From NCBI GenBank assembly GCA_030268105.1, contig BSDZ01000015.1:3251501-3315500 (forward strand): a stretch of DNA of 64,000 nucleotides, given 5' to 3'. Position numbers and translations under genes: made by a program. Below, piece after piece: positions 31,845 through 64,000 of the stretch (its first letter is position 1; every line of letters begins with the position of its first letter). The notes beneath the pieces were generated by a model that did no database searches, was not told the origin of the DNA, and worked only from the letters and a program-made list of their open reading frames with translations. This DNA is from Volvox africanus (lineage: Eukaryota > Chlorophyta > Chlorophyceae > Chlamydomonadales > Volvocaceae).

Positions 31845-31880
<36 letters not shown>

Positions 31881-34800
31881 ACCTGGGGGAGGAGGCAAGG
31901 CCGGTGCGGCACCCCCGTCGTCAGCTGCTTCCGGTCGGCCGCAGGTGGGTCCAGGAAGGCATAGATCCAGGGGAAGGGGTAAATGCGAAACAACGGACCC
32001 ACGGGTCACAATGGAACACACGGAGAGCTAAGTCTTACACCCTCCGGGGGGACATCTGACACTCCTCAGGACGCTCGTGGTGGCTCGGGACGCTTCGGCA
32101 GAGACGACCCGCACAAGGCTCCTGCAGGGGGTGAGGTTTTAAAGAGGCGTGGGTTTGAGGGGTCTGTCGAAATTGGTGGTTTGGTGATGTTGGGGAGTTC
32201 GGGAAGAGGAGGTCAATGAAGGGAAGGAGGGGGGAGGGAGGAAAAGGTGTGTGGGGGGGAGAGGCCCGTTGGAAGGATCGAGGGAGGGCATAGTAACGGG
32301 GTGTCAAGGGCAATGGAGAGCAGGAAATGAGGGGTGCTTTTCAGGAACGGAATTACTAATCCCAAACACCTCCGCTATAAAGTCAGGACTGAAACATTAC
32401 ATCCGTAGTTTAACCTCTTTGATTTTACGTAATTGGTGCCCAATATAACAAAAACCTTCTGACCTTCCTTGCCGGTACCATGCCACATAACCGAAAGCAG
32501 GCTCTGGCGGCAGCGCGCACGGAAAGCCGGCGGCGGCGGCGCCGCTACCAACTACCGCTGGCTATGTCCCCGTACGTAAAGCCGGTCCTTCAACGGCAGC
32601 GGGAGCGCCGCCGCCGCCGCCGCCGCCGCCCCCGCCGCCGGCATCATCTTCAGGCGCAAAGGGTGCCGCTGCCGCCGGCGTCAAATCCCACGCTAGCGGC
32701 GGAAGTGGCGGCGGCGGATCGTCCAAAGCTGCGGCGGCGGCGGGATCGGGGCATGGTTCCGGAGCCGGCGGCGGAGTCGCTGGCAAGAGCAATGACGGAG
32801 CGAAGAGGGGAGGTATCCCGATTATTATCGTACCTTCTGGTGGGTTTTTGGTTGGATCTCGTTGTACAGGGTTTCGGAGGGATCGTAAAACAGTCAGGTG
32901 TGGGGTGAAACATGTCTCGAAATCGAAAATGGAAACGAAGAGCTCAAGGGCATTGGCTTGGGGCAGGTACCTCCATGATGGCAACTGGCAAGCGAAGGAG
33001 CGGCCAGTTAGTTGGAGTTGACAGTTGGGATACCTGCTTCGCATAATCTGCAATGTTGGGGGTGGTTGTGACGAGAATGCTAGGGATGGGAGGGATGGAA
33101 ATTATGGGGGTTATTTGTGATGGTTGGCGCCTGAGTCGTTGGGTCGGATGGCACAGGCTACAGCGCTCTCTCCCGGTTCACGCGCTCCTGTACCACCGCG
33201 CTTCAAAACCACAAGACCACACCACAAGACCACACCTGCACACACGCCAACTTCCTCCCCCCCCAGGCCTTACCTCCATGATCAACATGTACAACGCCAA
33301 GGTGTTTCTGGAAGAGGGTCGGTTCGTGCCAGCAGCCAAGGTGAATGCTGTTTCGTTATCACTTATTCAACAATATCAGTAATAATCCACTAACAATAGG
33401 AACACGATTACCACTAATAATAAATAATATAAGTCAGGAAAGTAGAAGTGTTAATATTTGATATGGGTTATGGGTTATGGGTTATGGAAAGGCTTGTGGT
33501 AGGACGAATAAACGAGACATGATACCCCTTGGGGGGGGTGTTCGCCTCCCCTCCCCGCCGCCCAAAACACACAGCCATACACACACGCATGCACGCACGC
33601 ACAACCCCCCCCCCGTTTTCCTTGGTGCGTACATATCATACCACATCATATAATATACTATGTGATGTCATATGACATCGTTCCACATCTCTGTCCTTCA
33701 GCTGCAGCTTTCCACCCCCCCCCCCGTCCTTCCCCCCTGCCAGGCCCAGGCTGCGAGTGGTGGAGCCCCCAAGCCCACCTCCCTCACCTTCCGCCGTACA
33801 GCTAGCCGCGGCTCCCCTGGTGTGGAATACACCCTGACCGACCGGCCCCCGGCCCCGGGCAGCCCGGACTGGGACCGAGTGGTGGCGGTGGTGGTGCAGG
33901 GGGCGAAATGGCAGTTCAAGGAGTGGCCGCATAAGGTATCCTCCTCCTGGAAGTAGGATAGGACAATACGGACGTAAGGTCCAGGAAGGGGAGAGGAGGG
34001 GGGGCGGAGGAAGGAATAAAAGGAATGGAACACGAATCGAATGCCGTCGAGGAAGGGAGAAAAGATTACGTTATAAATAATACGTCATAAATGATAAAAC
34101 TGCATTGCTGAAGAAACCGGAACCCTAAGACCCCGGAACAGCTTCTAATCGAAGAATAGCACATCTCTTCCTCCGTACGGTGTATCCTCTAAAGGCGCCA
34201 CTAAAACCCTTCAACCGAACAAACTGAAAGGAAACTGTACCTTGCCTTAAACGTTCAATCAACACGAGACTTACACCCACCCCTGCCAGCTACTGGCTGG
34301 GCTACTTTTAGGCCTGACAGGCTAGCCAGTCAGACCTAACAAGGCTTTATTAACTAATTACCCCTTAATCAGCCCAGTCAATGGTTTGCAGGGCACCCAA
34401 CAACTTAACTTTCGAAAACATCGTGTGGACTCGGAAGTGGACCCAGTTGCTGCTGGTGACCGACCAGGCGCTGCAACGAACAGCATCACCTGAAATTCCA
34501 ATTCCCCATACCCCTCTCTCCCCCTTTCCTCCCTCTGTCCTCTACTTGAGTTGCGCGGTTCCCATGGAAACACTGCTGCCCCACCCCTTGCTCGTACTTC
34601 TGTGCCGTACTTTTCTTCCCTTTTACAAATCCTTCCTTTTTTCCCAATTTGTGTTTCGCATCCTTCTTTTTTACTTTCCTCTTAATTTCAGCTGCACAGT
34701 TTCGTGGGGTGCAACATTTCTTCCTGCCACGACCTCGTGTAGCTTTGCGCAACCTTGCATTTCTGCTACTAACGCGCGTTCTTGGGGGGTTGGGAGAAGC

Positions 34801-35945: not shown

Positions 35946-37274
35946 CCCCGCGTCTTAATCGGTTCCCGCCTTTTCCTTGGGAGTATGGTTGTGGACCTAA
36001 CTAACATCACATCCCCACTACTCCTCGTCCCTTACGCCAGCTCATCCTACATGGTTTCAGTTTGCGTGTGCACATTGCAGCTCCTCATTGCAGCTCACGG
36101 GGCGCTTCAGCTGCTTTCTTTTTTGTCTTTTCACGATGACGCTGCCTACCCGTACTCAATCATACTATGTATTCCTAGTTGTGCTCCTCCCACCTGCTCC
36201 GGCCTGCACGGTGCTCATCCGATGCGGGTCCTCAGTCCTCCTTTCCACCCCTCGCCCTTTCCAATGTGCCCGTGCAGGCGAAACGCAGCACTCTTGCATT
36301 TTGAAATTGCAAAAAAGGCAGCGGATGCTCATTTCACATAATTTCCAGGATATGGGTCAGCAGATCCCAGTAAATACTCGGCTCTTCCCGCGCTTTGTCA
36401 AGTCTTATTTGGATAAAGGGAATGTACGAAAGGGGTTGTGGGGTTAGGAAGAAGGGGTTGCAGTACACCAGCGGTGGCAGTAGCAGCAGCACCACCGGCA
36501 GCCAATCCATCAGCTGCTATGACAGCGAGAAGGCCCTGTGTTCGGAAGGAGTCAATCCGCGGGTTGAATCGGTTATATGAATTTGGTTTTGATTAACTTG
36601 GCCGCAGCACTTGACACGTAGCCATAAGGTTGCTAATGACAGCGCTTAGGATCGCAATGACCTAACAATAGTTGATCGATTGTGTCCGTCGCCCTTCAGC
36701 CACTGTTGGTAACTACCTCGATACTCCCATCACACAGCCGTACAGTCGTACCCAAAAGCGACTAAAGTAAAAGTTTTGCAGAATTGATGGAGCGTCAGGC
36801 ACCAGGCGTGTGAATATGTATGTATCATCCCGCAACGGTGATTTCCCCAAATGACGCGAGATGGAATGGCATCGCCTGACACCATGAACCGATCATACCC
36901 ACTGCCAGTCGATATGCTGTACAGCTACTGCGATGTGTATGAAATCCAGGCCTAGCGTCAATTTTATTAGAGGCTAATATTAAAATAAAGAGCGAAGGAG
37001 AAAAATCGATGGTCTAACTTGATAAAAAAACCTTCTAGAATAATGATGATATAAACATTATATTTTAGGATTACACGGTTTCGTTGATTCGATATTTTTG
37101 CCTTAGCTCGTTTTGGTAGTGGTACGTACTGGGATTCCTAAGGATGATAATGACGGTTCGGATAATAATGTAGTCAATCTAAGTAATGCGGTGATTGATC
37201 TGTCAATAAGCAGATCAGGAGAAGGAATTTCCGTCTATTTAGAGTCGAATATAGTGTATATGGCCTAATTGGGG

Positions 37275-45071: not shown

Positions 45072-46545
45072 TCATGTCAGCATGCATGGGGTGTACGTAC
45101 AGGAGTGCGTGTGTGGTGCGTGAATGTGATGTCACGAGCGGCATAGTACTGTCCCTCAGGCAGGTGGCCCCCGGCCCTTGCGTGTGGGTTGGTACGTCCG
45201 TAGCTCGGAGTGCAAGCGCAGAAGAGCGGTTATTATTAGCTGGTAATCAGCAGGTATTAAGTACTAAATTGTAGTTAAAACCCTACCCGGCCCTAGACAT
45301 TTATACCAAACAAAATTTTTTAAAGATTTAATTTCGATGGTAGCTAGCAAGGACCATTTTTGTGTTTTCTGTATTCGGGCCAAACACACGCCTGCTGCAA
45401 GCATGCTGGCTGGTGTCGGTATGGCACATACTAAGTACGAGTTTCATTACTGTGTCGTGACACTGAGTTATTGCCATTAGCGAGCTAGTATGTGTGTGTG
45501 CGCAGGAGTATATATGTATGTGTGTGGGGCGAGGACCTGCTACTGCTGCCGATGTTTGTTTAGAAAGCATGTGTACATGATGCGTGAACGTTATCGCATG
45601 CATGTGCACATACGAAGCTGGGGAGGGGGTTCAAGTTCTGCAAGAGCATATCTACGTAATTATCTGGTGGAATACGAACCCTCCATGCTCGGTAAGGACA
45701 TACATGGGCAGCAAGTCTGGTATCCAGCTACAGGCTGGATGTACCTCTATATGCTGTACGTACGTAAAGGTGCTGCATATACCCCCACGTCGAAGCCCTG
45801 GTGCCCCAGGTGGGTGGCTGGCAGTGCGTGGCCCTAGCAGGGGCTGCTGTGGACCAGCCTTTGGGCGCGGTGACAGATGATTACACCCCATATAAGATAT
45901 AAGGAATGATACACAAGAAACGATAACTTACAATGCCCATGACGAAAGGCTTACGTATTATCGGAGCTAGTTGTTTCAGGCATGCGGGCAAGACACCCTC
46001 GTCATTGATAGCCATCTCAGGTAATATCCATCGTCCAATCCGCGGTCTGCTTACAGCTGAATCCTGAACATCTGGGTAGCTAGTGACACGGTGCCGATAA
46101 TAACCACATACATTGACCTAAGTCCGTTGGTTGTGCAACGGAAGCAAATACATAGTTCTTTCCTGATAATATCGCATATGATTTTACCTGGTTGTCTCTG
46201 ATACCGTAACTTTGCCGGCCATGAAACGCCGCTGCTAACAGCCTCTAAGGGAATAACTACATCATTTCCTGTAACTGACGCATTCTATCCTAAAAGATTG
46301 GAGCGAAAGGGCCGCTGCGCGATTAAAAGTTTTTATAATGTGCCGTATGATGCCATCCAGGCACAGCACAGTCCGCAGGCATCGCACTCGTCAATTACTA
46401 TGACAACTGCTCATAAGGTGTTTCTCGCTTTAGATTCAAACACATCATCCTTGACTATCATACTGGACAAAGGCGTAAATATTGCAACATTCTTTGACTC
46501 TAGGCATACGGGATACGTACCCGTAGCACCGAACAAGGAATCATA
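45072..46545. other. No supported gene; Ku70 upstream region
   Basis: Between the CACTA-like element and the Ku70 start codon. A + frame at 46298-46546 (82 residues) ends with a stop whose last base is the A of the Ku70 ATG (TAATG). It resembles nothing known and may be a chance upstream ORF or UTR sequence. Confidence 0.4.
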
Positions 46546-49500
46546 ATGACTGAACATTACAATGATAACATTTGGATTGAAGAAAATGAAGACGAAGAAG
46601 AGGACGCCCAGAAAGAGGTATAGAACACACACATTTGCCGTTGTCCGTATAACGGATGCGAGGAGACATACCAGCCCCGCTTTGGCTGCACAGTATCGCG
46701 ATTACTACAAGGAGAAGATGATCTTCATGATGGACGCACAGGAGAGTATGTTTGACGAAATCGAGGTACGACATCCTTTGCATTCCCGCGCACAAAGCCA
46801 CGTCTCCTTCACCACACATGCACGAGTCAAGTCAGCAAACCTTAAGTTGGTTTGACAAGGTGCCCCATATGGTTAAAAGACTAATGCAAATGCAACGCAC
46901 ACATGCAACGACTGCTTAGAAGTATTTCTCAACATCAAATGCAAACTGCATACCCAACCGTACACCAGCTATGCGGGGAGACCACCACCTCCTTCGAAGC
47001 GGCGCACCGAACCGTCGTAGAGCTACTGAAGCTTAAAGCGATACAACATCCAGACGATCAAGTGGCTGTCGTACTGTACAACACGGTATGAACAGCGCAC
47101 TAAATGTGGATTTGGGAGATGTCGTTTTTTGTTTGTGTGTGTGGGGGGGGGGGCCCGGCCAGCCTCGTGCTGGTCGAGGCTGCGAGATGCGATAGGGATG
47201 TTGCAATGAACCTGGATGCCTCTCAGTGATTGCGGAAGGGCTTATGGAGGAGGGAGCCGTCGAAGGTGGCCTAAAAGGTGCATGTGTGCTCTTCTTGTTT
47301 CCCCAAACTCCTGAAACCCCAAGTGCCTCTTGTTCCTCGTCCTGCTTTTTGTCACTCCCCTCTCTCTCCCCACCTCCGAAACACACACAAACATACACAA
47401 GTACCTTCCCAACCCCTCCCCCCTTCACACACACACAAATTCAGCGGGAGAGAGACAAACCCGGGGGCGGTGCCGGTGCCGGTGGTGGTGGCGATGATGG
47501 TTTTACGACACCATTTACGGCAGCCTTTGAGGGGGTGCGCACACTTTTGGAGCTGCAACAACCTTCCGCAGAGGCCGTACGTGCTGTACGAGATCTCACG
47601 GGTGGGTCTGTGGGAAGGAGTGAAACCCAACTTCTGTCTTCATCGTCATTCCCTTCCCTGCCCCTTCTCACATCGGCTCTGTGTCGTGACACGTACTGTG
47701 CCACGACCCCCATCCGCGGTGAACTCATCCTCTTAGCCCCCCTCCCCCCTTTCCACTCCCTCCAACCCCCTCACTCCCCTCACGCCCATCCGACCTTTAC
47801 GGCTAGTCCTCGTTCATTCAGTACCAGCAGCAGCCGGTTCGTTTCATTCGGCTTCCCCAACTCCCCCTCCCTGCCTCCCGTCCCCCTCGCTCCCCTCCAC
47901 TCCTCCTCCCTGCCCTCCACTTCCCCGGGTACGTAGCTGACACCTTTCGTAGGACGATTGGCAGCCGGCCACAACGTCGCGACTCCGCGTTAGCGGATGC
48001 GCTCTTTCGTATCCAAAACTGTTTGGCGGCAAGCCGTAGCGCCGAAACGTGAGTTTAGTAATACAGGAGGGGCCGGAGGGGGGGAGGAGGGTGTAGAGGT
48101 TTGGGATTTCGTGTCAGGATTCGCTCACCTCCTGCATCATGACGCCAGAACTTCTGGGGTTGCGGCATTACCTCTGAATAAGTGCCTGCTAAGATTCCTT
48201 CGTGCAAAACACATTCCATCTCTTCCCCCCCCCCGCCCGCTCTCCCCCTCCCCTCCCCTCCCCGCCGCAGATCAATTAACACGCTGGTGGTGTTTACTAA
48301 TGACCCCGAGCCCTGCGGTCCAAGTACGGCACCCGGGTATAAGGCAGCACTGTAAGCGGGGAGAAACGAGGCCCGGCATTGGGTGTGCCGTATGGATCGG
48401 GTTGTCGACAAAATGGCGAGCCGCCGCTGCCTTTTTAAGCTTCCCCCGCTTTGTGAAACTTAAAATTACTAATAACTTTTACATGTGTGAAAACCCTTCA
48501 CGGTATATAGGGCCCAGCTGAACAGCCGCGTGGAGGCGCTCCAGGGATACCGGGTGTGTCTGCGTCTCTTTCCGCTGGCGGCTGCCGTACGGCCCTTTAA
48601 CTCGGGTCGTTTGTGGCGCAGCGTCTTGCGGGCGCTGTCCGGGCCAGCGGAGGAGCTCGACGGCGGGGCAGGAGGCGGCAGCGGCGGCGGCGGCGGCGGT
48701 AACGCTGTTAGTGGCGTCAGCGGCGCCGGTGCCGGAGGGGAGTGGGTGGGGTACGACGAGGCGTTGCTGCAAGAACTGGTGGGTACGGGGAAGTCGAGGT
48801 GGAGGTTGAGGGCGGGAAATGAGAGGGCGAGATGACTGTGTGAAGCAGTGGTGTGGCAAGTGCGCGTCGGCGGTTAGGGTGATTAAAAGTGGTTTGTACT
48901 TAAGAAATATTTCTTTGTTTCCGAAACCTTTATTTCACTCTCCTTGCTTGCCGTCCGTCGTGGTCTGGACTACCTATCCTGCAATCTGGCTTCCTGTCTG
49001 GTTGCCTAATCAGGCCATTGACCCGGGACAGCGGCGGGATCCCGTAACGGTGATCACTGCGCTGTTCGAATCCTTCAAAAGACGGCTTTCACGAAAGCGG
49101 ACGCTCATGAAACTGAACTGGGTCCTCAGCGAACGCCTCAAAGTGGCGGTCAAGGTGGGCGTCGCTGTCCATGACTCCATGTCCACTCCATGCTATTTTC
49201 TGTTATTGGTTTTTTTTCGGTTGTCTGTTGTCTTTTAGTTTTTTCGGTTTGCTTCCTGATTCCCTTACATTCCATCTCTGAACGAAGTGGACACATGCAG
49301 GCCCCCGTACTCTCGCCTTTCCCTCCCGTCTCCTCCTTGGGCATGCGTATACATTGTCATATGATTTCATGCGCTTCCCCATATTCCCAGGGTTATTTGC
49401 TTGTGTACGATGCGGCCAAGAACGCAAAAAGGACCGTGTACGTAAATCCCGTAACAAACCAGCCACTTAAGGTAGGGCAGGGATAGGGTGCAGGAGGGAG

Positions 49501-52500
49501 ATTGCATTTATGTGTGTGTGGTGGTGGTGGGGGGGGATAAGGGGGGCTTTGCTTCACCCGTGGCCACTACTATCTGGCAGTAATCCCTACCTTCCCCTGC
49601 CTGTGTTTCGGGGCACCCTCATCCGTTACCCCCTAGGGATTAGTTGACTGCTCCAAAATACTCAGTGATTTTCCCGATATAGTACATTATCAACATCGGG
49701 GGAGTATATGTGCCCTTAGCCAGTAAAGGGATTTTTCTCCCACTCTCATTTAGGATCGATCTCAGGGCCTCCGGGGACATAATGTCTAAATTCTTCTTTA
49801 GGGACATCTTTTGAACCATGTTTTATGCTTCCAAATTTGTTGGGACCAATCTCTGGATCAGGTCATCAGCTTGGTTTCGACGTACGACGGTCGTTTGTTG
49901 GAGAATGAAGAGGTCGGCAAGATGAAAATGTTCAACCTGAAGACGGGAGACACGTCCCGGCTCCCGGAGGTGGGCGCGAAGGGGGGAGTGGCGGGGAGGG
50001 GGAGAGCAGGGGTGGAAAGCAGTGTGGGTATGAAGGGAGGAGGAGGTGTGGTCAGGAGTATGTGTGTTTGTGTGTGTTATATTGATAAAGCTACAATTGT
50101 GTATGTCACATGCATAAAGGCATCGGCCCTTAAGCTTAAAGGCACTTTTCTAAACTAATTAAAAAGTTTTAGCTCATTAGCAATCAATTGTAATACGCTT
50201 TCATGCCAGCAGGCTTGACTCCACCAAAAATGGTGTCTCCCTTAAAAAGTATGCTAAAATTACATACAACATAAGAAGATAAGAAATATGAAAGAAAACA
50301 CAAAAGAGAAAAAAATCGACAACAACAAGAAAGAAACACTTTCATGCGAAAATATATTACTTGATTGTAAAATCCTAACGCACATTTTATTTCCGCTGTA
50401 TTGTGCCGTACTGGCACGGTGGCATGCAGGTCATGGTGCCTGCTTCCGAAGTCTCCGCGAGTGGCGGCGCTGGTCTGGTCCCCCCGGGCCTTATGCTGCT
50501 GGGCTTCAAACCGCTCTCCTGCCTTCTGCCGTACCACCAAATGCAACCCTCCATCTTCCTGCGCCCGGACGAGCGGTCGGCCCCGGGGTCCACCATCGCC
50601 TTCATCTCCCTTTGGAGAGCGATGCTGGCGGAGGGGCGATTTGCACTGTGCCGGTGCGTGCGTGCGTGTGTGTGTGTGTTTATATGTCAGTGTGTATGCG
50701 TATCTGTGTATGCTTTCCCAGGGTTTGAGAGGGGAAAGGCACCAAACGTACGACAGGACCACTGAGGAGTCACTCAACACCTTGCGGTCCTGAAACCCAG
50801 TACTCAAAGAGCCTTATGCATATCCGCCTACAAATACACACACGCGCGCCTCCCTATCCACCCACACGCCCCTGAACACGCACACCCCTACATTCCTGTA
50901 CAGCCGTGTCCGGTGGATGGTGTGGGTTTCGGAGCGCAGTCGTCATGAGTGTTTCAATCCCCCCAAAGCACGCGGACGCTCTTTGTTTGCAGATATCGAA
51001 AAGCCGCCAACACCAGCCCCCGTCTCGTGGCGCTGATTCCGCAAGATGAGGGCATCGACCCCTACGGCATCCAGACTGATCCACCTGGCATTCACATGAT
51101 CATCATGCCGTACATGGATGACATACGGCATCCGGAGACGGGTGCGTGCGTGTTTAAATCACAAGCAACTTGAATAAATAGTATATTAGATACATACCAT
51201 ATGTCATTGTGCATATATCGTGTAACATCATGTATAATAAATATTTTGTCTATTGTTAATTGTATATGTCTATGGTATACAAAGATCAGTAAGCCCGTGG
51301 TAGGGAAAATCGACGCATAACCCTTAATATATTTTGTATGAAATTTTATTGCAGTATAATCATATAAATGCATATATATAATGCATACGGTTTAATACAT
51401 ATGTACGACATACGTTTTTACCGTCAATGATATGACATAATTTACGGTAACTTTATCCTTACTTGCAAGGCCCTTTTTGCTTCCGTGTTGGGTATTTGCA
51501 CACTCAAGTCTACCCTCGCTTTACCCTTCTCTTCCCCTTCCCCCTCCAACACACCCCTCCTACATCACTTGATGTGATGCGCCTCCCCGCAGCCACCGGC
51601 GTCGCACCGCAACAACCATCGGACGGGCAGATGGCCGCCAGTAAGGCGCTCATAGCCGCCCTGGACCTCGAAAAGGTGGAGGCCTTCGACCTGACGCAGG
51701 TTTGCAACCCTTGGCTCGAACGGCACTACGCAGTGGTGGAGGTGAGGCGCTGGGATGGGGGGAGGGAGAGCGGATGATTAGGGGGGAGAGAGAGGGGAGG
51801 ATGGGGAGAGGGAGGGGGGGATGGGGGGAGGGAGAGGGGAGGATGGGGGGAGGGAGAGCGGAGGATGGGGGGAGGGAGAGGGGAGGATGGGGGGAGGGAG
51901 CGGGGAGGATGGGGGAGGTAGAGGGCAGGATGGGGGGAGGGAGCGGGGAGGATGGGGGAGGGAGAGGGGAAGGTTAAGGGGGGGAAGAGAGGGGAGGTTG
52001 GGGGGAGGGAGCAGGGAGGATGGGGGAGGGAGCGGGGACTGGGATGGGATTACTAACACACCAACACCAACACCGCAACACAACTGGATTTGGGTCTGGT
52101 ATTGGATGTCTGTGGCTGCCGAGGGAGGGTTGCATCACACATCCAGAAGACCAAAATGATCAAGAGCAGTGCAAAATTAGGCTTCAGGTTGAAGCGCCGA
52201 GGTTTTGCCGTCCTCGTTTTCCGGAACCCTTTCGTCCTGGCCACCCTCCCCACTTCCCACCCAGCCATGGAAGGAATACAACTTATGGCTCCATGGTTCT
52301 GTCCTTGTACGGCACGTCGAAAAGGCGCCTGCCTGCTGTGTCACCGGCTGTGATATATACTTTGGCTTCGTTGTTTATGTGGAGGTTACAAGCCCTCTGA
52401 TTTTACCATTGGTTCTGTCACCGATAACGCCTATATTGAAGCTGAAATCTCGGGTGTTAGCTCGGAAGTATGCGGTGTAATTAGCGAAATATTAGTAGAG

Positions 52501-52992
52501 GAAAATAATAAACTTAAATGCGGTCAAATTATAGCTAAAATTAAGGATGATGATTATCGCGCTAATTACGAAAAAACATTAGCAACTCTGGAAGGAGCAA
52601 AAAGAGACATAGAACTAATAGATCAAAACATAAAACTTGCCCAAATTGATCAAACTAAGGCAAAAGAATCTCTGGAATTTGCTGAAACTAATCTTCGCGA
52701 GCTCTGTACATATAATCTTGCAACACCATCCTCACCCAATCCCGATCCCAATCCTAATCCCAATCCCGCATCGACCAACCCGGCAAACCCCGCAAAAGGC
52801 TCTCGCGCTGTCAGAGCCCATACCCCCCTGGTCAGCGATTGCGGACGACGGCACTCGACCCCGAAGGGAGCTGTTCGAGTCGCGTGAAGCAATCGAGGCC
52901 ATTGAGGTGATGCCGCGGAGCCCGATCGTGGGGATGGGGATGGGGATGGGGGGAGGGAACGGAGCTGTGTATGTCTTAAATGTAAAAGTGTA

Positions 52993-53045
<53 letters not shown>

Positions 53046-53993
53046 GTTACTGCACATGAAGGAGTATGTAAAACTTGATTGTGTCTGTCGCGTTATCTGT
53101 CAATGTCTTGCACCTGGTGGCGCGTCGGCGCAGACCTTTCGACTGGCGTTTCCCCAGGAGGGGTCGGGGAAGGGCACCAAGCGCAAGGCCGTGGGGGAGC
53201 CGGGAGGAGGACCCGCGGCGGTCAAGGTGCAGAAGGCAGAGGCGGTGGCGGACGCGTATTCAGGTAAGGAGGAGAAAGCAAGGGAAGGGAAGAAGAAAGC
53301 AAATAAACAACGAAGAAGCGGCGCTGTTCTTTGGCGGAGGGGAGGAGAAGGAAGAGGGTGTGTCCAACATGGTGAGGTAGTCTGCAAAACTAGTTGGGAG
53401 GACATATCAATTGGTCGATCTATCTATCTATCTGTCAGTTTACATGTGACACAAACAGCCATAAAATAACACAAACAAATACCATTCACATCTCCACTCT
53501 CCCCACTCACCTTCCGCACTGCCAACTTTATAAATCGCTCACCCGTTAAGAGAGTCAATGTCCACTCTGTCCACTCTGTCTCCTCCACAGCCATTGATTG
53601 GGAGGGGTTGTACCGATCTAACGGTTTCACCAAGCTCAACAAAGACGACCTCACCTTGTACTTGCGGTAAGTACGGCGTGAATGATGTGATGATAATGAA
53701 TGATCCATGTCATTTGTCGATCCTTACCATCTATCTCCTGACTAATCTATATCCTAATTAGGTCTGACTGGCTGGCTTGTCAGACCTAACTGGCCCAGCC
53801 AGCAGGTGGCGAATTCATTGAGTCGGTATCCCTTAGTCGATCCTTCAAATACGTTGCCATTCCCTCCCCTCGCGCTTTGCGTGTGGTTTGCTGCAGGCGG
53901 CACCTGCTGAAAGTTACGGGCAAGAAGGACGAGCTCATACAGCGAATCCGAGAACACATGGAACAGATCGGGAAGGGTCCGGGGTCAAGGTAG
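46546..53993 (+). CDS. Ku70, DNA double-strand-break repair protein, complete
   Basis: Seventeen exons fit in phase: 46546-46617, 46694-46765, 46969-47085, 47445-47605, 47953-48048, 48271-48351, 48511-48778, 49014-49154, 49391-49471, 49862-49969, 50430-50653, 50993-51141, 51593-51741, 52799-52906, 53134-53263, 53591-53666, 53897-53993, giving 709 residues. The N-terminus is acidic, then a vWA domain (DYYKEKMIFMMDAQESMF, DQVAVVLYNT, INTLVVFTNDP). The beta-barrel core includes PPGLMLLGFKPLSCLLPYHQ, QPSIFLRPDE, RLVALIPQDEG and GIHMIIMPYMDDIR. The C-terminal arm has NPWLERHYAVVEALAL. A SAP domain closes the protein (residues ~655-700, FTKLNKDDLTLYLRRHLLKV, GKKDELIQRI). Ku70 with Ku80 rings DNA ends and starts non-homologous end joining. 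Exon 7 has a Gly-rich loop that makes the protein longer than most. The donor at 47605 (GTCTGT) is weak but needed for phase. A TGTAA lies near 54552. Confidence 0.93.
47797..47890. repeat. Short dispersed repeat, copy 2
   Basis: Counterpart of 35862-35945, in Ku70 intron 4, sense orientation. Confidence 0.55.
49537..49782. repeat. Dispersed intronic repeat, copy 2
   Basis: Counterpart of 17931-18245, located in Ku70 intron 9 in sense orientation. Confidence 0.6.
51775..52032. repeat. G-rich minisatellite in Ku70 intron 13
   Basis: Tandem imperfect copies of a unit like GGGGGGAGGGAGAGGGGAGG ending in AT, on the coding strand. It has many closely spaced runs of three or more G, so G-quadruplex formation in DNA or pre-mRNA is plausible. 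Confidence 0.88.
52376..52702 (+). pseudogene. Bacterial HlyD/EmrA-type membrane-fusion protein fragment
   Basis: An AT-rich stretch within Ku70 intron 13, without an ATG, reads openly as GGYKPSDFTIGSVTDNAYIE, AEISGVSSEVCGVISEILVE, ENNKLKCGQIIAKIKDDDYR, ANYEKTLATLEGAKRDIELI, DQNIKLAQIDQTKAKESLEF and AETNLREL. The TDNAYIEAEIS start, the VsGvIseIlVeeNnkLKcGQiiakI biotinyl-lipoyl half-motif, the DDDYRANYEK continuation and the following alpha-helical coiled coil are the hallmark order of bacterial periplasmic adaptor proteins of tripartite efflux or type I secretion systems. It corresponds to the region just after the N-terminal membrane helix up to the first arm of the hairpin. Codons end mostly in A or T, unlike the neighbouring exons. 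The frame differs from that of exon 14, and Ku70 reads smoothly across (AVVE-ALAL), so this is intronic. It is an inferred horizontally acquired fragment. Confidence 0.78.
52979..53047. repeat. (GTGTAT)n-type microsatellite
   Basis: A run of GTATGTGTATGTGT in Ku70 intron 14. Confidence 0.9.
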
Positions 53994-55012
53994 TGTCGGC
54001 GGAGCGTGAGGGGGTAAGAGATATATGTTTTTGTGTATGCGTGCATGTGCTTATGTGTGTGTACGTGTATATGTGCGTATGTTTGTATGTGTGTATGTGT
54101 GGAGTGAACAGCTGTGTAGCGTGGCAATGAGGCGGTGGATGAAAGGGCGGGAAAGCCTCATCCAGGCCCGGTGTCGATCGACGACCAAGTGGACGCAAGG
54201 CAGCAAGCAGGTAGTGCGAAGTGAATGCGAAGGGATGCGAAAGGGAGTAAAGCCGTAAAGTCGTCTCCCGTGATGGAAGGAAGACTAGGTAGGTGGGTAG
54301 GCAGGTAGGTGGGTAGCGCAGGCGCAAAAAATCTTGATTTGTGCGCCGTATGGAGAAAGCTTTAAATTCATTCGGCATTTTTGAGTGGTTGGGTAGGTAG
54401 CTAGGTAAGTAGGTAGCTAGGTAGGTAGGTAGGTAGGTAGGAAGAGGGAGGGAGGAGCGGTTAAACGGGTACACAGACATTGGACACATTCGTAGAGGTG
54501 ACATAAACATGGTCGTTGCAAGTCAACTGCTTGTTGTACATGATAAGCTTCTGTAATAATTACGCAGGGATTTCAACATAAGCCTCGTACATATGATGTT
54601 ATATCATCAATTTGCCCAAGTCACAGCACAGCTCAAGACAGCATATTTCAATACAGCACAGTAAAGTACAGCACAGCAGGTAACTTCACTATCAAGACAT
54701 CAACCATGCCCTACATATACAATTATACGTCAAGCGATCATTCCTAAAGGATTTTAACCCTTCAGACCCTCAGGAAGTAAAACATGCTCCACAGTGTGCT
54801 CCACAAATCGCACAAGGACTCACCATGTCCTGATCCATCCATGCCCTGATCTGTTGTTTAGGCAGTGGGAATGTTCCGCGTTGATTTATGCACCCGACCT
54901 CTAACCGTGCCGTGCCCAGGCCTTGATACCATACCCCCACAAAACGCGTACCAGGATAAGTCCGAAACGGACTTAGTCTGAGCCTGTCTAACCCTGACTT
55001 ACTGTCTATGTA
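53994..55012. other. Ku70 3' region; GGTA microsatellite, no gene
   Basis: Contains (GTGTAT)-like repeats near 54030-54100 and a (GGTA)n tract at about 54285-54442, also a cluster of CAGCACAG motifs near 54625-54680. Nothing coding is supported. Confidence 0.5.
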
Positions 55013-57270: not shown

Positions 57271-60200
57271 CTAAAGCCCCTGCTCTGTTCTTGCTGCTCC
57301 ATGGTTGGTGATGTCAACCGGATCTGCACACCGCATTTGCGTGCCAACTATGGCTAGGATGGGATGTTGTGGTCCCACTTGATCCCAGCCATAGTGAGGT
57401 ATTCCCAACGCTGCAAAAGAATGCAAGCGTGCCCAAAAGTCGGCAACTGTACGGGCCTGTGCACGGTCCAGGGGTGAGGTTGCTGTTTGTGTTGGAGTGT
57501 CCATTGCTGGCTGTGTCGTAGAGATGATTGGATGGGTGTTGGCATCTTCCTCTTCCTCTTGAGGGAACCCCCCTGAACGGTTGAAGAAGTCAGTAATAGC
57601 CCGTTGACGGGGTCCCTGCTCTGCTGTGTGGGTCTGTTGTTGCTGCCGCCGTCTGTGGGTAGAAGGCCACTGTGGCCTGTGTTCTCTTGTTGCCGCCCGG
57701 AGACAGTGCCTGCCATATTCCATAGAAGATAAGGCTGCCAAAGCTATCACGTCCCATGGGGCCTGCTCGCAACCGGGAGGTGCTTGGACAAGCCATAGCT
57801 GTTGCCTGGTCAAGCCCCCTTCAATGGTGGCTGATGTCGGCAATGGCAGATGTCTGTCAATCTGTTCTCGCACCGCCTTGGCTATAGGGCACTCCCAGAA
57901 GTGGTGCAGGCGTGGGGAGCAAGGTTGATCAGTATCAGCTCCATAGCTGCCACACCCACATGGTTTGATGGGCACCCTGGAAAGATGTGTGTTGCCAGGT
58001 ATGGGTATCCCATCGACCACCAAACGCCACAGCGTCTCTTTGTTTTTATTTTCCCACCGAACTGCTGTCCACAGCCTGCCTAGGGTTGCCTGAAAGCGCT
58101 GGAGGTTAGTGACAGGACAGGGAGGAGCTGGACCGTCTGTTGGCATCCCTTGCGCCTCCTGCACAAAAGCTGACAAGAGCTCCAATCGCTCCTCCGCTGT
58201 TGAAACCCCTTGCAGCTGAGTAGCTTGGCTTACCGTGAGGTTGTAGAGAGGCACTATACCCGAGTCCCCTGGCAATCTCCAGCCCAAACGCCTGACGATC
58301 ATGGCCATGACTGTGGTGCGGTCTGGTGGTGCTGGCATCTGCTGCTGCATTCTGTCCTCCACCCTGTCCGGCTGTTGGGGTTGTAAGCGGTTGACTACCT
58401 TCCGTGCTGCTGCTATCCATGCCGGGCTGATATCGTTGCATAGAGCCGAGAGAGCCATACGGGTAGACTCCTTGTCTCGCAGTTGGGTGGGGCTAGCTGA
58501 GGGGTCTAGAAACTGTTGGGTCCAGTCTAGCCAGGTCATGTACTGAGGGAGGGGTATTTGGTCATGCTCCAGCATGTCGTACACCCTTACCAGGTCCCCA
58601 ACTGTGAGCAGTTTTCTGCATGAAGCCATCAGTGGGTGACGGGTTTCCAGGCCTGGGCGGTGGTTGTTACCATTGATGCTTCCCCCATTGTCCGAATTGT
58701 TGGGCAGCAAAGGATTTCCCCAGAGAGCAGCCGCCCAGCACCAGTCTCCAGGGGCTAAAGGTGGGTTGCTGACATCTTCTAGTGGTGGGAGGTGCCCTAA
58801 AGCCCCTACAATTCGGCTGATCTCCTCAGGCAAGGTCTCTCCACCCAGCCAGGGCCCAGTTGCCTGGGCAGTGGTAAGGGCCCAAGGTTTAAAGGCCGGA
58901 TGGGTGATCTCCAGGTAGGTGGCCAGGGTCCGGATCCAGGGGTGGAGGCTTCGAACATTACCACTAGTAACTGGCTCTTCCTCTTCTTCAGCAACCGTAT
59001 TCATCGCCGTGTCCAGAAGCATTACCCTCTCTCTCTCTCTCCTGGCCATCAGGGCCCCTCGGATGAATCGCACTGCCCACATGGCTTGTCTTGCCCGAAT
59101 GTGTTGCCTGAGGGGCAGTAGGCCAAAACCACCAGTTGATGGGTGTCCCACCAAGAGTCTGCTAGGTACTCCAGTGAAGCGCTGGCCCTGGTCTTCTGGG
59201 CCCTGTTTCCGATCTACAAGGCGAGCAGCTAAGCGTTCAATGTAGGTCAGAGTGGTATCTGGAGGTGGTCCACCATGCTCCATATGCCAAGTGACTGTTT
59301 GCAGGCAATAGTTGGAGACTGCTGCAGCCCGACCAAAGGCAGAGAGCGGATAATGGGCTAGGCGTTGCATCCTCGTGTAGGCCAGGGCTAGCATCTCCGG
59401 CCAGTCTGGTTGGGGCGGCTGCAGTTGGTTGTCCATTGGCAAGTTAAGGGCTGTCGCAGTGGTGACCACCTTCAGGCCATTTATTGTGCTTCCCTGATGG
59501 TGGTCGTCCACAGCCCCTATGGGTAGGATTTCCATCTTATCCAGGTTCAGGTGTTGACCTGATGCCCGGGCAAAAGTGTCCATGGCTTCAAGGAAGGCTG
59601 GCACGGATTCCTCTCCTTCAAGGGCCACTTCTGCATCATCAGCAAACTGACAGGCTGTGACCCTGTCTTCATCTGAAGGCAATAGGCGGAGGCCTATCTC
59701 TTGGCTCTTTAGCCAGCTGAACAAGGCCTGGGCAACAAAGAGATACAGCAGGGGTGCTAGAGGGCAACCCTGTCTTACCCCTGCTTCCATTTTAACAAGC
59801 CTGGATTTGAAACCGTTCACCATGGCTCTTGCCCGCGTGTTGCTAAGCAATATCCGGGTCCAACTGCAAAGCTGTGGGCCTGCTCCCATCGCCTCCATCG
59901 CCCCCATCAGGAAGTTGCGGTCCACTGTGTCATAAGCTTTTGCGAAGTCCAGGAAGGCCAGCAGACCTTGGCGGTTCAATTTCCGTAAGAGATGAGGCAG
60001 ATGGCGTAGAAAGAGAACACTGGCCCCGATGAGCCTCTTGGGCAGAAAAGCTGACTGCTCAGGGCTAATGATTCGTCCCAGGGCTGGCCCTAGGCGATTT
60101 GCCAGCACCTTGGCCAGCAAGCGGTAGTCCGAGCAAAGCAGTGTGATAGGGCGGTAGTTACCAGGCTGTTTGGGGTCTCCCTTCTTGTAAAGCACCTTAA

Positions 60201-61920
60201 TGATACCATCCAGAAAGCCTGTTGGCACCTGTCCTGTTTTGCCGATAGCCGTGAAGAGGGCTGCCATGGTATGGCCAATCTCTGGCCAGAACTTGCGGTA
60301 CAGATCCGTTGGGATGCCATCCCATCCGGGTGCTTTGCCTGGCTGGCTCTTCTTCAGTGCGAAACCCAGCTCAGTCACAGCAATGGTCGGGGACCCAGCC
60401 ACTTCGTCAGCTTCCTCAGGGAGTCGGATGTTGGCTGCTGCTAACTGGGTTAGCACTGACTGGCGATCTTCAGGAGTGGTGAAGTCTGGGGCTCTGCATA
60501 CCCCTGCCCAAAAGTCCGCTACGACCTGTGGTAGCTGTGCTGGATTAGTGACCAGTCGGCCTGAGTGTGCCTGGAGTGCCACTGGGGCTGTTTGCTGGTC
60601 CTGGATTTGGGTTTGCAGGAAGGTTGTCAGAGCTGGGCCAGGACGCTCTCCTGCGTGTAACCAGTGGACCCGGGTCTTTTTTGCCACCCTGGCGTTGTCC
60701 TCAATATGCACCCTAGCCAGTCTTGCTTGGGCATCTATGAGCTGCTGTAGTAGGTGTGGTGAGTGCGGCATAGTATCGAGGGCTTGTTGGGCCTGTTGGA
60801 CCCCAAGGTAGGCCTCCTGGGTATGAGCACCTGGCTGCTGTCTGCGCTGTTGCGCTACCTTGTTGAGTTGGTGTGCTAGGAAGGTTAGTCGGCGTTTAAA
60901 ACCAGGCCACCAAGCAATAAGGTTGCCCGGATTCTCTTCGACTGAGGGTGCCTCTTGGCATTGGTTCCGGATCCACTCCGCCATGCTTGTAGCCAAATCC
61001 TCATGGTCAGTGAAGGCCATGCGTATACGCTTGATGCCTGGGCCCTTGACCTCATTTTTGCAAGGTAGGAGATGAAGTGTGGCAAGACGGTGGTCTGAGG
61101 CTGTGTGGAAGGAGATGGCTGTATGGCATAGGTACGGCAGCTTGGCTTCATTGATGTAGATGCGATCTAGGCGTGAACCGCCTGGGGTGGGTGCATGGTA
61201 CAGGTGAGTGAAGTCACGGCGCCTTGGGTGGAGGTATCGGTGGGTATCTACCATCTGTGGGCCTGCCCGCTGCCGCATCTCAGTGATAGGCCTATCTGCT
61301 TGACGCCCATCTCTTCCTGCGGACGAGTCCCACTCTGGGTTTTCCACAAAGTTGAAGTCTCCTGCCCAGATAAGGGTGGTGTCCCTATTGTCCTCCATGG
61401 CTTGCGTTGTGGTGGCAGCCAGGGCGTTCTCGAAGAGTTGTCGCCGGGTTTCCGCAGCCATCGAGGTAGTGCCAGGTGGGAGGTAGATATTGCAGATGTG
61501 CAGGCGGTGTCCCCCCCAGTGGAGGATACAGTCGGTGAAACGGCCTCTCGTACATGTATGCTGGGGTGTTGCCAGTTTAGGTGCCAGAGCTGAAGCTAGC
61601 CCCTGTCTGATGAGGATGAGCACTCCTGCTGTGTGCGTCGAGTTAGACCAAGAGTAGGCTGCTATCTTCCAGTTTTGTGTGTGGATCTGTTTGGTGGCAT
61701 AACGAAGATCCCGTTCAAACAGGCATTGGTGCTGGAGGGTAGTGTGGTGGGTTTCCTGCAGACATACAACATCCAGCCGCTGCTCAGCCCATTGACGTAC
61801 CGCTGCCTGAAGTCGACTGCCATGAGAGGCCAGAAGCCCTCGCATATTGTGCGTGGCTATGCGCAGTGGATGCCCTGAGATAGCTCCCTGCCGCTGACTT
61901 CTCTTGTTGCCTCTGGACAT
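57271..61920 (-). CDS. LINE ORF2: endonuclease and reverse transcriptase, intact
   Basis: 1549 residues. An APE-type endonuclease fills residues ~18-285 (IATHNMRG, CLQETHH, WAGDFNFVENP, RLDRIYI, SDHRLATL), with the catalytic Asn, Glu, Asp and His in place. Reverse transcriptase spans ~520-800 (GKAPGWDGIPTDLY, VLYKKGDP, NYRPITLL, AFLDFAKAYDTVD, GVRQGCPLAPLLY, FADDAEVAL with the FADD catalytic pair). Residues ~1320-1345 hold a CGCGSY...C...HHFWEC zinc-binding motif typical of LINE C-termini. At residues 1439-1446 is QRAITDFF, a perfect PIP-box consensus. The ATG overlaps the ORF1 stop as TAATG. The protein nicks target DNA and primes reverse transcription of its own RNA. Confidence 0.95.
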   Translation of the reverse strand: MSRGNKRSQRQGAISGHPLRIATHNMRGLLASHGSRLQAAVRQWAEQRLDVVCLQETHHTTLQHQCLFERDLRYATKQIHTQNWKIAAYSWSNSTHTAGVLILIRQGLASALAPKLATPQHTCTRGRFTDCILHWGGHRLHICNIYLPPGTTSMAAETRRQLFENALAATTTQAMEDNRDTTLIWAGDFNFVENPEWDSSAGRDGRQADRPITEMRQRAGPQMVDTHRYLHPRRRDFTHLYHAPTPGGSRLDRIYINEAKLPYLCHTAISFHTASDHRLATLHLLPCKNEVKGPGIKRIRMAFTDHEDLATSMAEWIRNQCQEAPSVEENPGNLIAWWPGFKRRLTFLAHQLNKVAQQRRQQPGAHTQEAYLGVQQAQQALDTMPHSPHLLQQLIDAQARLARVHIEDNARVAKKTRVHWLHAGERPGPALTTFLQTQIQDQQTAPVALQAHSGRLVTNPAQLPQVVADFWAGVCRAPDFTTPEDRQSVLTQLAAANIRLPEEADEVAGSPTIAVTELGFALKKSQPGKAPGWDGIPTDLYRKFWPEIGHTMAALFTAIGKTGQVPTGFLDGIIKVLYKKGDPKQPGNYRPITLLCSDYRLLAKVLANRLGPALGRIISPEQSAFLPKRLIGASVLFLRHLPHLLRKLNRQGLLAFLDFAKAYDTVDRNFLMGAMEAMGAGPQLCSWTRILLSNTRARAMVNGFKSRLVKMEAGVRQGCPLAPLLYLFVAQALFSWLKSQEIGLRLLPSDEDRVTACQFADDAEVALEGEESVPAFLEAMDTFARASGQHLNLDKMEILPIGAVDDHHQGSTINGLKVVTTATALNLPMDNQLQPPQPDWPEMLALAYTRMQRLAHYPLSAFGRAAAVSNYCLQTVTWHMEHGGPPPDTTLTYIERLAARLVDRKQGPEDQGQRFTGVPSRLLVGHPSTGGFGLLPLRQHIRARQAMWAVRFIRGALMARRERERVMLLDTAMNTVAEEEEEPVTSGNVRSLHPWIRTLATYLEITHPAFKPWALTTAQATGPWLGGETLPEEISRIVGALGHLPPLEDVSNPPLAPGDWCWAAALWGNPLLPNNSDNGGSINGNNHRPGLETRHPLMASCRKLLTVGDLVRVYDMLEHDQIPLPQYMTWLDWTQQFLDPSASPTQLRDKESTRMALSALCNDISPAWIAAARKVVNRLQPQQPDRVEDRMQQQMPAPPDRTTVMAMIVRRLGWRLPGDSGIVPLYNLTVSQATQLQGVSTAEERLELLSAFVQEAQGMPTDGPAPPCPVTNLQRFQATLGRLWTAVRWENKNKETLWRLVVDGIPIPGNTHLSRVPIKPCGCGSYGADTDQPCSPRLHHFWECPIAKAVREQIDRHLPLPTSATIEGGLTRQQLWLVQAPPGCEQAPWDVIALAALSSMEYGRHCLRAATREHRPQWPSTHRRRQQQQTHTAEQGPRQRAITDFFNRSGGFPQEEEEDANTHPIISTTQPAMDTPTQTATSPLDRAQARTVADFWARLHSFAALGIPHYGWDQVGPQHPILAIVGTQMRCADPVDITNHGAARTEQGL

Positions 61921-62444
61921 TATTCGGCTTGGGTTTCCCGGTTGGGGGGGTCATACTCCTTCCCATCGCAGTCCATGTCCTGGGATGGGTTGGGGTTGTT
62001 TTTGGTTTGCCGGGGACGCCGAGTGGGTGTCCGCCGTGGTCGGAGTGCCTCCTTGGTTATACCACCTGATACCGTTGACTCCCTCTCCTTCCGTTGCAAG
62101 GCTAGTTTGGCCTTCCGGGCTTGCCTTGCCCTCTCTGTTTGGGCCATGTGCCGCTGGGCTCGTACCTCCTCTGGCAGGTGGGTCAGTCGCTGCTTGCGAA
62201 TTTTGTTTTGTTGGGTTCTGGTGAGGGCGTGGCTGTTTGAGGTATGCTCTTGTGCCCTGGCCCTGGAGAGTGAGCGTCCAGCTGGTGCGTTGACCTCGTT
62301 CACCACCCCCTGGTTGTCTGGCTTTGATGCTGGTTGGGGAGGTGGTGGTTGGGCTGCACATTCTGTGACTACATCAGTGGTATTAGTCGGGGTTCTGGGT
62401 TTGCATGCTGCTGTAGCGGCTTTGGCTGCTGCTTCCCTGGCCAT
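61920..62444 (-). CDS. LINE ORF1, short basic protein, possibly 5'-truncated
   Basis: 174 residues, Ala-rich at the start (MAREAAAKAATAACK), then rich in Arg, Gln and Lys (TRTQQNKIRKQRLTHL, ERARQARKAKLALQRKE). It ends acidic (DMDCDGKEYDPP). No RRM or CCHC motif is seen, unlike full-length ORF1 proteins of many LINEs, consistent with loss of the 5' part or a simple nucleic-acid-binding basic protein. Its TAA overlaps the ORF2 ATG by one base, an arrangement used for termination-reinitiation in some LINEs. Confidence 0.6.
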   Translation of the reverse strand: MAREAAAKAATAACKPRTPTNTTDVVTECAAQPPPPQPASKPDNQGVVNEVNAPAGRSLSRARAQEHTSNSHALTRTQQNKIRKQRLTHLPEEVRAQRHMAQTERARQARKAKLALQRKERESTVSGGITKEALRPRRTPTRRPRQTKNNPNPSQDMDCDGKEYDPPNRETQAE

Positions 62445-62470: not shown

Positions 62471-64000
62471 TAGCTTATATGTATGTGTACTGTATAAATG
62501 ATCGACAACCTCGTCAATTGAGCAAACGAACGAACGAGGCAGGTCCAGCAGCAGTTCCACCATCCTTCATTTCCAGGCAGGAAGGGTGAACCTCGCTGTC
62601 TGCTGCATTCATCTTTCAAAATCACGCAAACCTGAGCTCATCAGCAGCCGCCACTTATTAGCAGCCGCATACAGATAGGCACGCTTACATACAACGTCAA
62701 AACAGATTCACAATTCGAACATAAGAAGCAATTGATTGCATGGCAGCAATCCAACATGTAGATATAGGTAATCTTCGTACCAGCAGTGGCCAGCGCAGCA
62801 GAGGTCAGCAGGCAGCAGTAAAATCAGTGGGAGAGCACTCAGTAAAGTCATGGATAGATTACGTGCGGGATGCGGTGTCGTCAATCGATTTCAAATTTCA
62901 ATAAACCATTTCACCCCCAAACACGCTCGTTGCTTGTGGATGCGCTATGCGGATGTTGCTTGGTGCTGAAACATCCATCATGAGGGATGTATCTGATACT
63001 TGCTTGCAAAGTTGGCTGCTACACGACGTAACGGGTAACCCCGCGGCTATAGGAAGCTATCTAATAAGCAAGTTAGCTGCTAGCCGCTAACTAGCGGCTG
63101 GCTATTCATCACTCCTATGCCTAGGTAGTCGCAACTGGCGGCAGTTGACATACAGCGAGCGTCTATCTTGAGACCAAGCAACTCCCTGCACCTATACATG
63201 CATGTTTGTATTGCATGGTAACATACGTAGATCTTGTGTGTACGTGCATTTTAAGCAAGCAAGCAAGTAGGTGACCGATAGATACAAATTGATGACACAT
63301 ACAGCATGGATGCAGCAGATGAGCAGAGCGAGCCACAGCAGGCGTAATAAGCAAGAAGCGAGCCGACAACGCGCGTGCGTGCGTGTTATTAGTTCGCAAT
63401 TCATGTCTAGCCAGCATGTATGTCTATGCCTCTTTATATATGCCAAAATCTCAATGTATGTCCTCCCCGTGAATCGCGGCCAAGCAAGCCCGCTCATTAT
63501 GCGCCCAATAGATAACGTGCATGGTTGCTTGCTTGCGCCGCGGCCGTATCTTGGCAATCCAGATGCAGTAACATTCAGTATCATATATCTACCTAGGTAG
63601 GTCGATAGGTAGGTTTGGACAGCGGCGGGTGCCTTCAGCACTTAGCTAGGCCGTCTCACCCAACCTGTTGTACCTCTCCTTCGTGTTTGCTCATAAGTAT
63701 CTGCACGTCTGAAGGCTTTCGACACCGATGCGCGAGCACTTGCAAGTACAACAAGGCAAGCGCGAGCAAACAGAGACAGCGGAAGACTTCAAGACAAGAA
63801 GAGATATAACTTACAGTCTTACAGATCGAAGTGGTGCAATGGACGAAATCGCCGTCAGCACCGGAAGCAAGCAATCATCATGCGGCGGTGATAGCGAAGT
63901 TTAGGCTTAGCTCGGGCTAAGTAGAGTAGCGTATAGCAATGATAATGTAGAACACACGAGTGTTCTCCGGTATCGAATGTCTTGTCTTGCTTAGCCGTCC
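62471..64000. other. No supported gene
   Basis: Short frames on both strands only. Small inverted repeats are present, for example AGCCGCTA next to TAGCGGCT at about 63090-63110, and a (GGTA)-like patch at 63590-63615. Nothing else was recognised. Confidence 0.4.

Follow-up and report, generated by a model that had tools for sequence, protein, structure and literature searches.

Intron 13 of the Ku70 gene of Volvox africanus contains a piece of a bacterial gene. We consider it very probable that it is a non-functional shred from a Candidatus Megaira-type (Rickettsiaceae) chromosome, captured in the algal nucleus by end joining. The piece is rickettsial in origin and intronic in position, many pieces of similar size lie elsewhere in the genome, and at least one locus is a mosaic in which unrelated pieces abut. 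The host is strain 1101-NZ-11 (= NIES-4468), which agrees with the volvocalean host named in an earlier reading made from the sequence alone. Its assembly is described as 129 contigs totalling 141.0 Mb, from PacBio at ~197x and Illumina at 166x (PMC10291315). The copy analyzed here has 126 contigs and 141 Mb. The window is the whole 64,000-nucleotide stretch that was analyzed, and its features are collected in Table 1.

Table 1. Features in the window (positions count from its first nucleotide)
Feature	Position	Strand	Remarks
Possible Megaira piece	37061..37113		83% at E 1.2e-6 in one genome; no match in the second genome compared
Ku70 (XRCC6 homologue) gene	46546..53993	+	17 exons; stop codon 53991-53993
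Intron 13 of Ku70	51742..52798	+	Contains the emrA piece and the probable obgE piece; exact mapping of P0034
Probable rickettsial piece, start of obgE GTPase gene	52340..52371	-	29/32 to Megaira 1001987-1002018, E 6e-4
Spacer between obgE and emrA pieces	52372..52419		48 bp
Ca. Megaira emrA/HlyD-family adaptor gene piece	52420..52692	+	273 bp, 91 codons; blastn and tree
Megaira piece ~320 bp downstream of Ku70 stop	54314..54390		86% to Megaira 787566-787642, E 1.6e-17

The host gene is well defined. Spliced mapping places the 713-residue protein VaNZ11_006414 (P0034) exactly on the 17 exons, 46546-53990, with all 16 introns of the GT...AG type, and the translation has both Ku and SAP domains and matches Ku70 in the PDB. 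Intron 13 lies between exon 13 (51593-51741) and exon 14 (52799-52906), so the intron had been numbered correctly from the sequence alone. As assembled, host exons stand on both sides of the emrA piece within a 3.98-Mb contig. The insert is absent from the annotated protein; that is, splicing passes over it. PDB searches for Ku70 exons in the other two frames gave nothing useful, and a plasmid collection compared with 3 kb of the locus gave no match.

The bacterial piece matches the Ca. Megaira symbiont of Mesostigma viride (CP084576.1, L004) at 342117-342389 on the minus strand, with 245 of 273 bases identical and no gap. The ErkenSummer Rickettsiales MAG (L002) matches equally well (245/273, also without a gap), both of these Megaira-type loci at a blastn E of ~1e-103, and a MAG labelled Rickettsia sp. 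(L003) matches at 216/272. The HlyD/EmrA fragment claimed earlier for 52376..52702 is therefore real, and the span needs trimming: 52420-52692 holds the 91 codons, while the ~44 bp to the left and ~10 bp to the right have no emrA match, identity falling to background on both sides. The start given at 52376 is out of frame and leads into stops; the open frame runs from stop to stop at 52354-52887. It was right that there is no start codon, for the piece is truncated at both ends. It also has no stop and no indel relative to its donor relatives. With 91 of 349 codons, an intronic position and no start, it is not a full-length functional adaptor frame. The homology presumably reaches from ahead of the lipoyl half-motif through that motif and the first coiled-coil helix. 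NCBIfam models agree on the family (MdtN, 4.2e-12; EmrA/EmrK, 9.1e-11), and the best score, 45.6 bits, falls far below the curated full-length cut-off of 376, as a fragment should.

The sequence-only reading had suggested homology searches with a phylogeny as the check on its rickettsial donor, and both bear it out: the matches are significant and belong to Rickettsiaceae and Megaira, not to green algae, with 90% DNA identity to Ca. Megaira. Among 33 proteins found for the donor emrA gene, the minority of rows that name an organism are all Rickettsiaceae or Megaira/Megaera. In a tree of 37 rows, 34 of them different, the piece falls in a set of seven that also includes the Mesostigma symbiont and Ca. 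Megaera polyxenophila (support 98/89). The closest rows by path, P0003-P0005 (93% identical), lie just outside that set and within a set of ten (95/85). By sequence, then, the nearest relatives are Megaira/Rickettsiaceae and neither host nor organelle. The protein stretch has a single match across the 141-Mb assembly, and contig C76 (L023) carries an overlapping 53-bp piece from the same emrA gene region.

Several other matches to Megaira occur in the window, from a comparison with whole Megaira genomes that covered everything downstream of positions 1-24000. Intron 13 probably holds a second rickettsial piece, 48 bp from the first and only at E 6e-4. The same place is matched in a second Megaira-type genome (E 0.016), and the name obgE comes from a reading of the translation rather than from a family search. 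The spacer between the two pieces has no match in ~207 kb of Megaira-type sequence. The piece downstream of the Ku70 stop recurs in the second genome at E 6.5e-14. Two further candidates were not counted: 45302-45335, found in the second genome only at E 0.0013, and 31845-31882 (E 3.2e-4), which faces a repetitive Megaira stretch. The window also has a 1559-codon open frame (57271-61950, minus strand) that looks like a LINE-type endonuclease/reverse transcriptase, and a stretch at 63666-64000, probably part of a retrotransposon, that is 92-93% identical to repeats on contigs C47 and C36.

The Ku70 piece is one of many, a fact out of reach of the sequence-only reading. The alga was compared with 69,798 bp (4.8%) of the genome of the Mesostigma symbiont, in four stretches: one of 9.8 kb that includes emrA, and three of 20 kb, at 352-372, 700-720 and 1100-1120 kb, picked by position (the first for its emrA) and not at random. 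They gave at least 148 matches at E <= 0.001 on 37 algal contigs, 21 from the emrA stretch and at least 41, 42 and 44 from the others; these counts are lower bounds, because only the best 40 of 48, 52 and 53 candidates were scored for the three 20-kb queries. The matches total 21,998 bp, with a median length of 90 bp, a mean of 149 bp and a median identity of 87%, and individual matches at 73-80% may include conserved genes that came from elsewhere. The sole control, 20 kb of an AT-rich Lactobacillus plasmid, gave one match (E 1.7e-5). Scaled linearly to 1,448,425 bp, the lower-bound count corresponds roughly to 3,070 pieces and 0.46 Mb. These scraps are probably the leftovers of past infections by a Rickettsia-like bacterium.

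Not every insert is a shred. The longest sampled is 2.4 kb at 89% (C4:2535210-2537642), and its donor stretch is represented by another two pieces ~5 kb away; C77 has ~1 kb of Megaira DNA. An insert on C10 (L006, C10:4996434-4997670) begins in emrA ~8 bp from the donor end of the Ku70 piece, and the two could be neighbors from one break or a coincidence. With some 3,000 pieces expected in 141 Mb by the scaled count, a 7.4-kb gene would hold one in ~15% of cases, so the location in Ku70, earlier thought a notable coincidence for a gene whose product handles DNA ends, calls for no special explanation. Random integration in Chlamydomonas is moreover reported to go mostly through POLQ rather than Ku (PMC8495919). 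The insert probably drifts neutrally in the intron.

The joining of pieces is best seen on contig C25, at a 6-kb locus (L036, C25:1244301-1250300) compared with two Megaira-type genomes at E <= 0.01. It gave at least 64 rows (the best 40 of 108 and 40 of 95 candidates), from which pieces were picked by hand, one row per place, with two more known from other contigs. The resulting 30 pieces, 37-213 bp each, cover 3,284 of 4,287 bp and come from scattered donor places in both orientations. Among these hand-picked pieces, unrelated donor segments abut directly, their junctions blunt or with short microhomology. Of the 29 neighboring pairs, 18 range from a gap of 5 bp to an overlap of 9 bp, with a median overlap of 2 bp and 13 of the 18 overlapping by 0-4 bp; these are raw overlaps of blastn ends, which overstate microhomology. 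The other 11 pairs have 21-182 bp between them to which no donor is assigned. Abutting unrelated pieces recur at C8:798364-798656, C17:2674825-2675004 and C25:1242575-1242867. Pieces of ~100 bp, scattered, in both orientations and mostly with little or no overlap in the close cases, are what would be expected from ligation at double-strand breaks. Together with the probable obgE piece in intron 13, such loci lend indirect support to the earlier suggestion that the Ku70 insert is a scar of end joining.

The steps we propose are as follows. A Megaira endosymbiont would once have lived in the alga's lineage, and the DNA of dying symbionts may have been broken into pieces of ~100 bp. End joining that tolerates short microhomology would then have linked these pieces together and inserted them at double-strand breaks in the nucleus. 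The joining may have been theta-mediated or Ku-dependent; this choice is conjectural, as is whatever cut the symbiont DNA so small. Capture would have been repeated over a long time, perhaps from more than one Megaira strain. There are precedents for such repair in related settings. Comparable junctions are described for plant numts and nupts (PMC6215612), Cas9 breaks in Chlamydomonas are reported to have taken up 132-500 bp of DNA that was either nuclear or joined from chloroplast pieces (PMC8495919), and plastid-to-nucleus transfer in tobacco is reported to rise when break repair is impaired (PMC12181080).

A different history is that one or a few large Megaira insertions came first and that nuclear break repair later copied or moved small pieces of them. 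We hold this to be unlikely. It draws on contig C36, a 694,844-bp contig reached through two mosaic pieces and read in 23 stretches, which does contain large duplicated Megaira segments. Partial alignments to Megaira at 83-87% occur at 64-68, 200-206 and 280 kb, and stretches at 100 and 130 kb match the Megaira-aligned stretches of the contig at 99-99.7%. The contig has IS701-type transposases, one of them at 392-396 kb, low GC at 45 and 240 kb, and a der gene shortened to 356 codons from ~450 at a 1-base gap near its end. The ends are tandem repeats of host-like composition that partly match other algal contigs, and 550-556 kb reads, from its frame, as a gypsy-type retrotransposon whose neighborhood is 93% identical to window 63693-64000. 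A chloroplast assignment for C36 was dropped on finding its bacterial genes; the live symbiont contig that those genes suggested was dropped in turn on the host-like tandem-repeat ends and the retrotransposon in the middle. We take C36 for nuclear DNA rich in repeats, with Megaira segments present in duplicate, and it could conceivably be a misassembly. Mosaic pieces elsewhere match it at 96%, 99% and 100% over 107, 84 and 127 bp, as secondary dispersal would have it. However, none of the at least 148 sampled matches lies on C36, which therefore was not the supplier of those stretches. In addition, pairs of algal loci with the same donor stretch agree at only 45/56, 57/69 and 55/65 (three pairs tested, in short alignments), a difference of 15-20%, so these copies do not stem from a single recent source. 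The L036 block as a whole occurs once in the alga among the best 40 of 50 candidates scored, so nothing indicates copying of the whole block.

A second repeat-rich contig, C47 (L041), has a 2.4-kb repeat unit that matches a group II intron (RF02005, two matches over 3 kb) and carries an apparent part of the intron's reverse transcriptase. One 70-bp mosaic piece is matched at 27 or more places on C47 and at two or more on C114. Taken broadly, repeated Megaira infections would have left a fossil record across the whole V. africanus genome, with thousands of ~100-bp pieces, many in mosaics produced by a host process that fragments and rejoins symbiont DNA, and with the bacterial DNA on C36 and perhaps C47 since amplified along with retrotransposons into nuclear repeats. 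The case for this wider picture is, in our judgment, evenly balanced.

Capture of symbiont DNA in the nucleus also has to be set against joining during assembly, in which a live Megaira in the culture would have supplied reads that were built into algal contigs. The culture may have held bacteria, since the assembly authors excluded contigs matching bacterial or organelle DNA (PMC10291315); the main text of that paper does not contain the word "rickettsia". On the other hand, the pieces are hundreds of bases long inside multi-megabase contigs of a 197x PacBio assembly (PMC10291315), and the annotated Ku70 gene is continuous across its insert. The reads of one live symbiont should also agree with each other, whereas copies of one stretch agree at 80-85% and the median identity to the reference is 87%. 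We find an artefact very improbable.

No more credit goes to domestication, by which the emrA piece would be under selection or expressed, whether as an exon or as a regulatory element. Its 91 codons without a stop or indel might suggest so, but an open frame is expected anyway because only 16 changes are unique to the piece relative to either Megaira sequence (9 synonymous, 7 nonsynonymous), and the annotated Ku70 protein leaves the piece out. The two Megaira lines have 10 changes of their own each in this stretch (7 synonymous, 3 nonsynonymous); 7 of 16 against 3 of 10 is too few for selection either way, and the pattern is compatible with relaxed constraint in numbers too small to show it. 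Finally, chance resemblance or an algal or organellar origin, for which one might cite weak Pfam matches (HlyD_2 E 0.0078 and Biotin_lipoyl E 0.0019, both under cut-off) and a marginal PDB sequence search (best E 0.032), is refuted by the blastn match together with the tree and the Rickettsiaceae or Megaira/Megaera names of the donor gene's relatives, and we leave it essentially no room.

If capture by end joining is correct, the alga offers a countable and datable record of the entry of endosymbiont DNA into the nucleus of a multicellular alga, in a lineage near Chlamydomonas and V. carteri, both laboratory models. How cytoplasmic DNA breaks and is captured, whether by POLQ or Ku, could be asked directly of the junctions and fragment sizes, and comparisons of strains could date gains and losses of Megaira. 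There is also a caution: a short bacterial match in a volvocine assembly is not necessarily contamination, and filters that work contig by contig leave such pieces in place.

The relationships to known systems are partial. To the EmrA, MdtN and HlyD adaptor proteins the piece is related by sequence homology; unlike them it is a 91-codon intronic remnant and not a gene. Numts, nupts and numins likewise join several short pieces from different places, with blunt or short-microhomology joins ascribed to non-homologous end joining, but their source is plastid or mitochondrial and not a bacterial endosymbiont (PMC6215612). The Wolbachia fossils of Dictyocaulus viviparus are also short, mostly disabled fragments, nearly 1 Mb of them, read as a past infection; there the host is an animal and the symbiont Wolbachia, and the abstract describes no end-to-end mosaics (PMC4046930). 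The nearest case is V. carteri, in whose nuclear genomes rickettsial gene-like sequences have been published (Kawafune et al. 2015, PMC4324946). Among the matches listed in the open-licence literature, this is the only paper clearly concerned with rickettsial DNA in the nuclei of Volvox, and none of those matches reports a mosaic, genome-wide Megaira record in V. africanus. As here, the DNA is of the Megaira group (the "hydra group"), lies in a Volvox nucleus, and consists of truncated genes interrupted by host repeats, and the symbiont was reported as undetected in those strains (PMC4324946). Strain EVE has a ~9-kb region with 16S, murB, ddlB and ftsQ, with related pieces found by PCR in other strains (PMC4324946); the murB stretch published for V. 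carteri has no match in the V. africanus assembly. Rickettsial inserts were thus already known from V. carteri, and what appears to be new, as far as reports were found, is the scale in V. africanus. Unlike V. carteri, it has mosaics in which unrelated pieces are combined, and 4.8% of the donor genome alone accounts for at least 148 short pieces.
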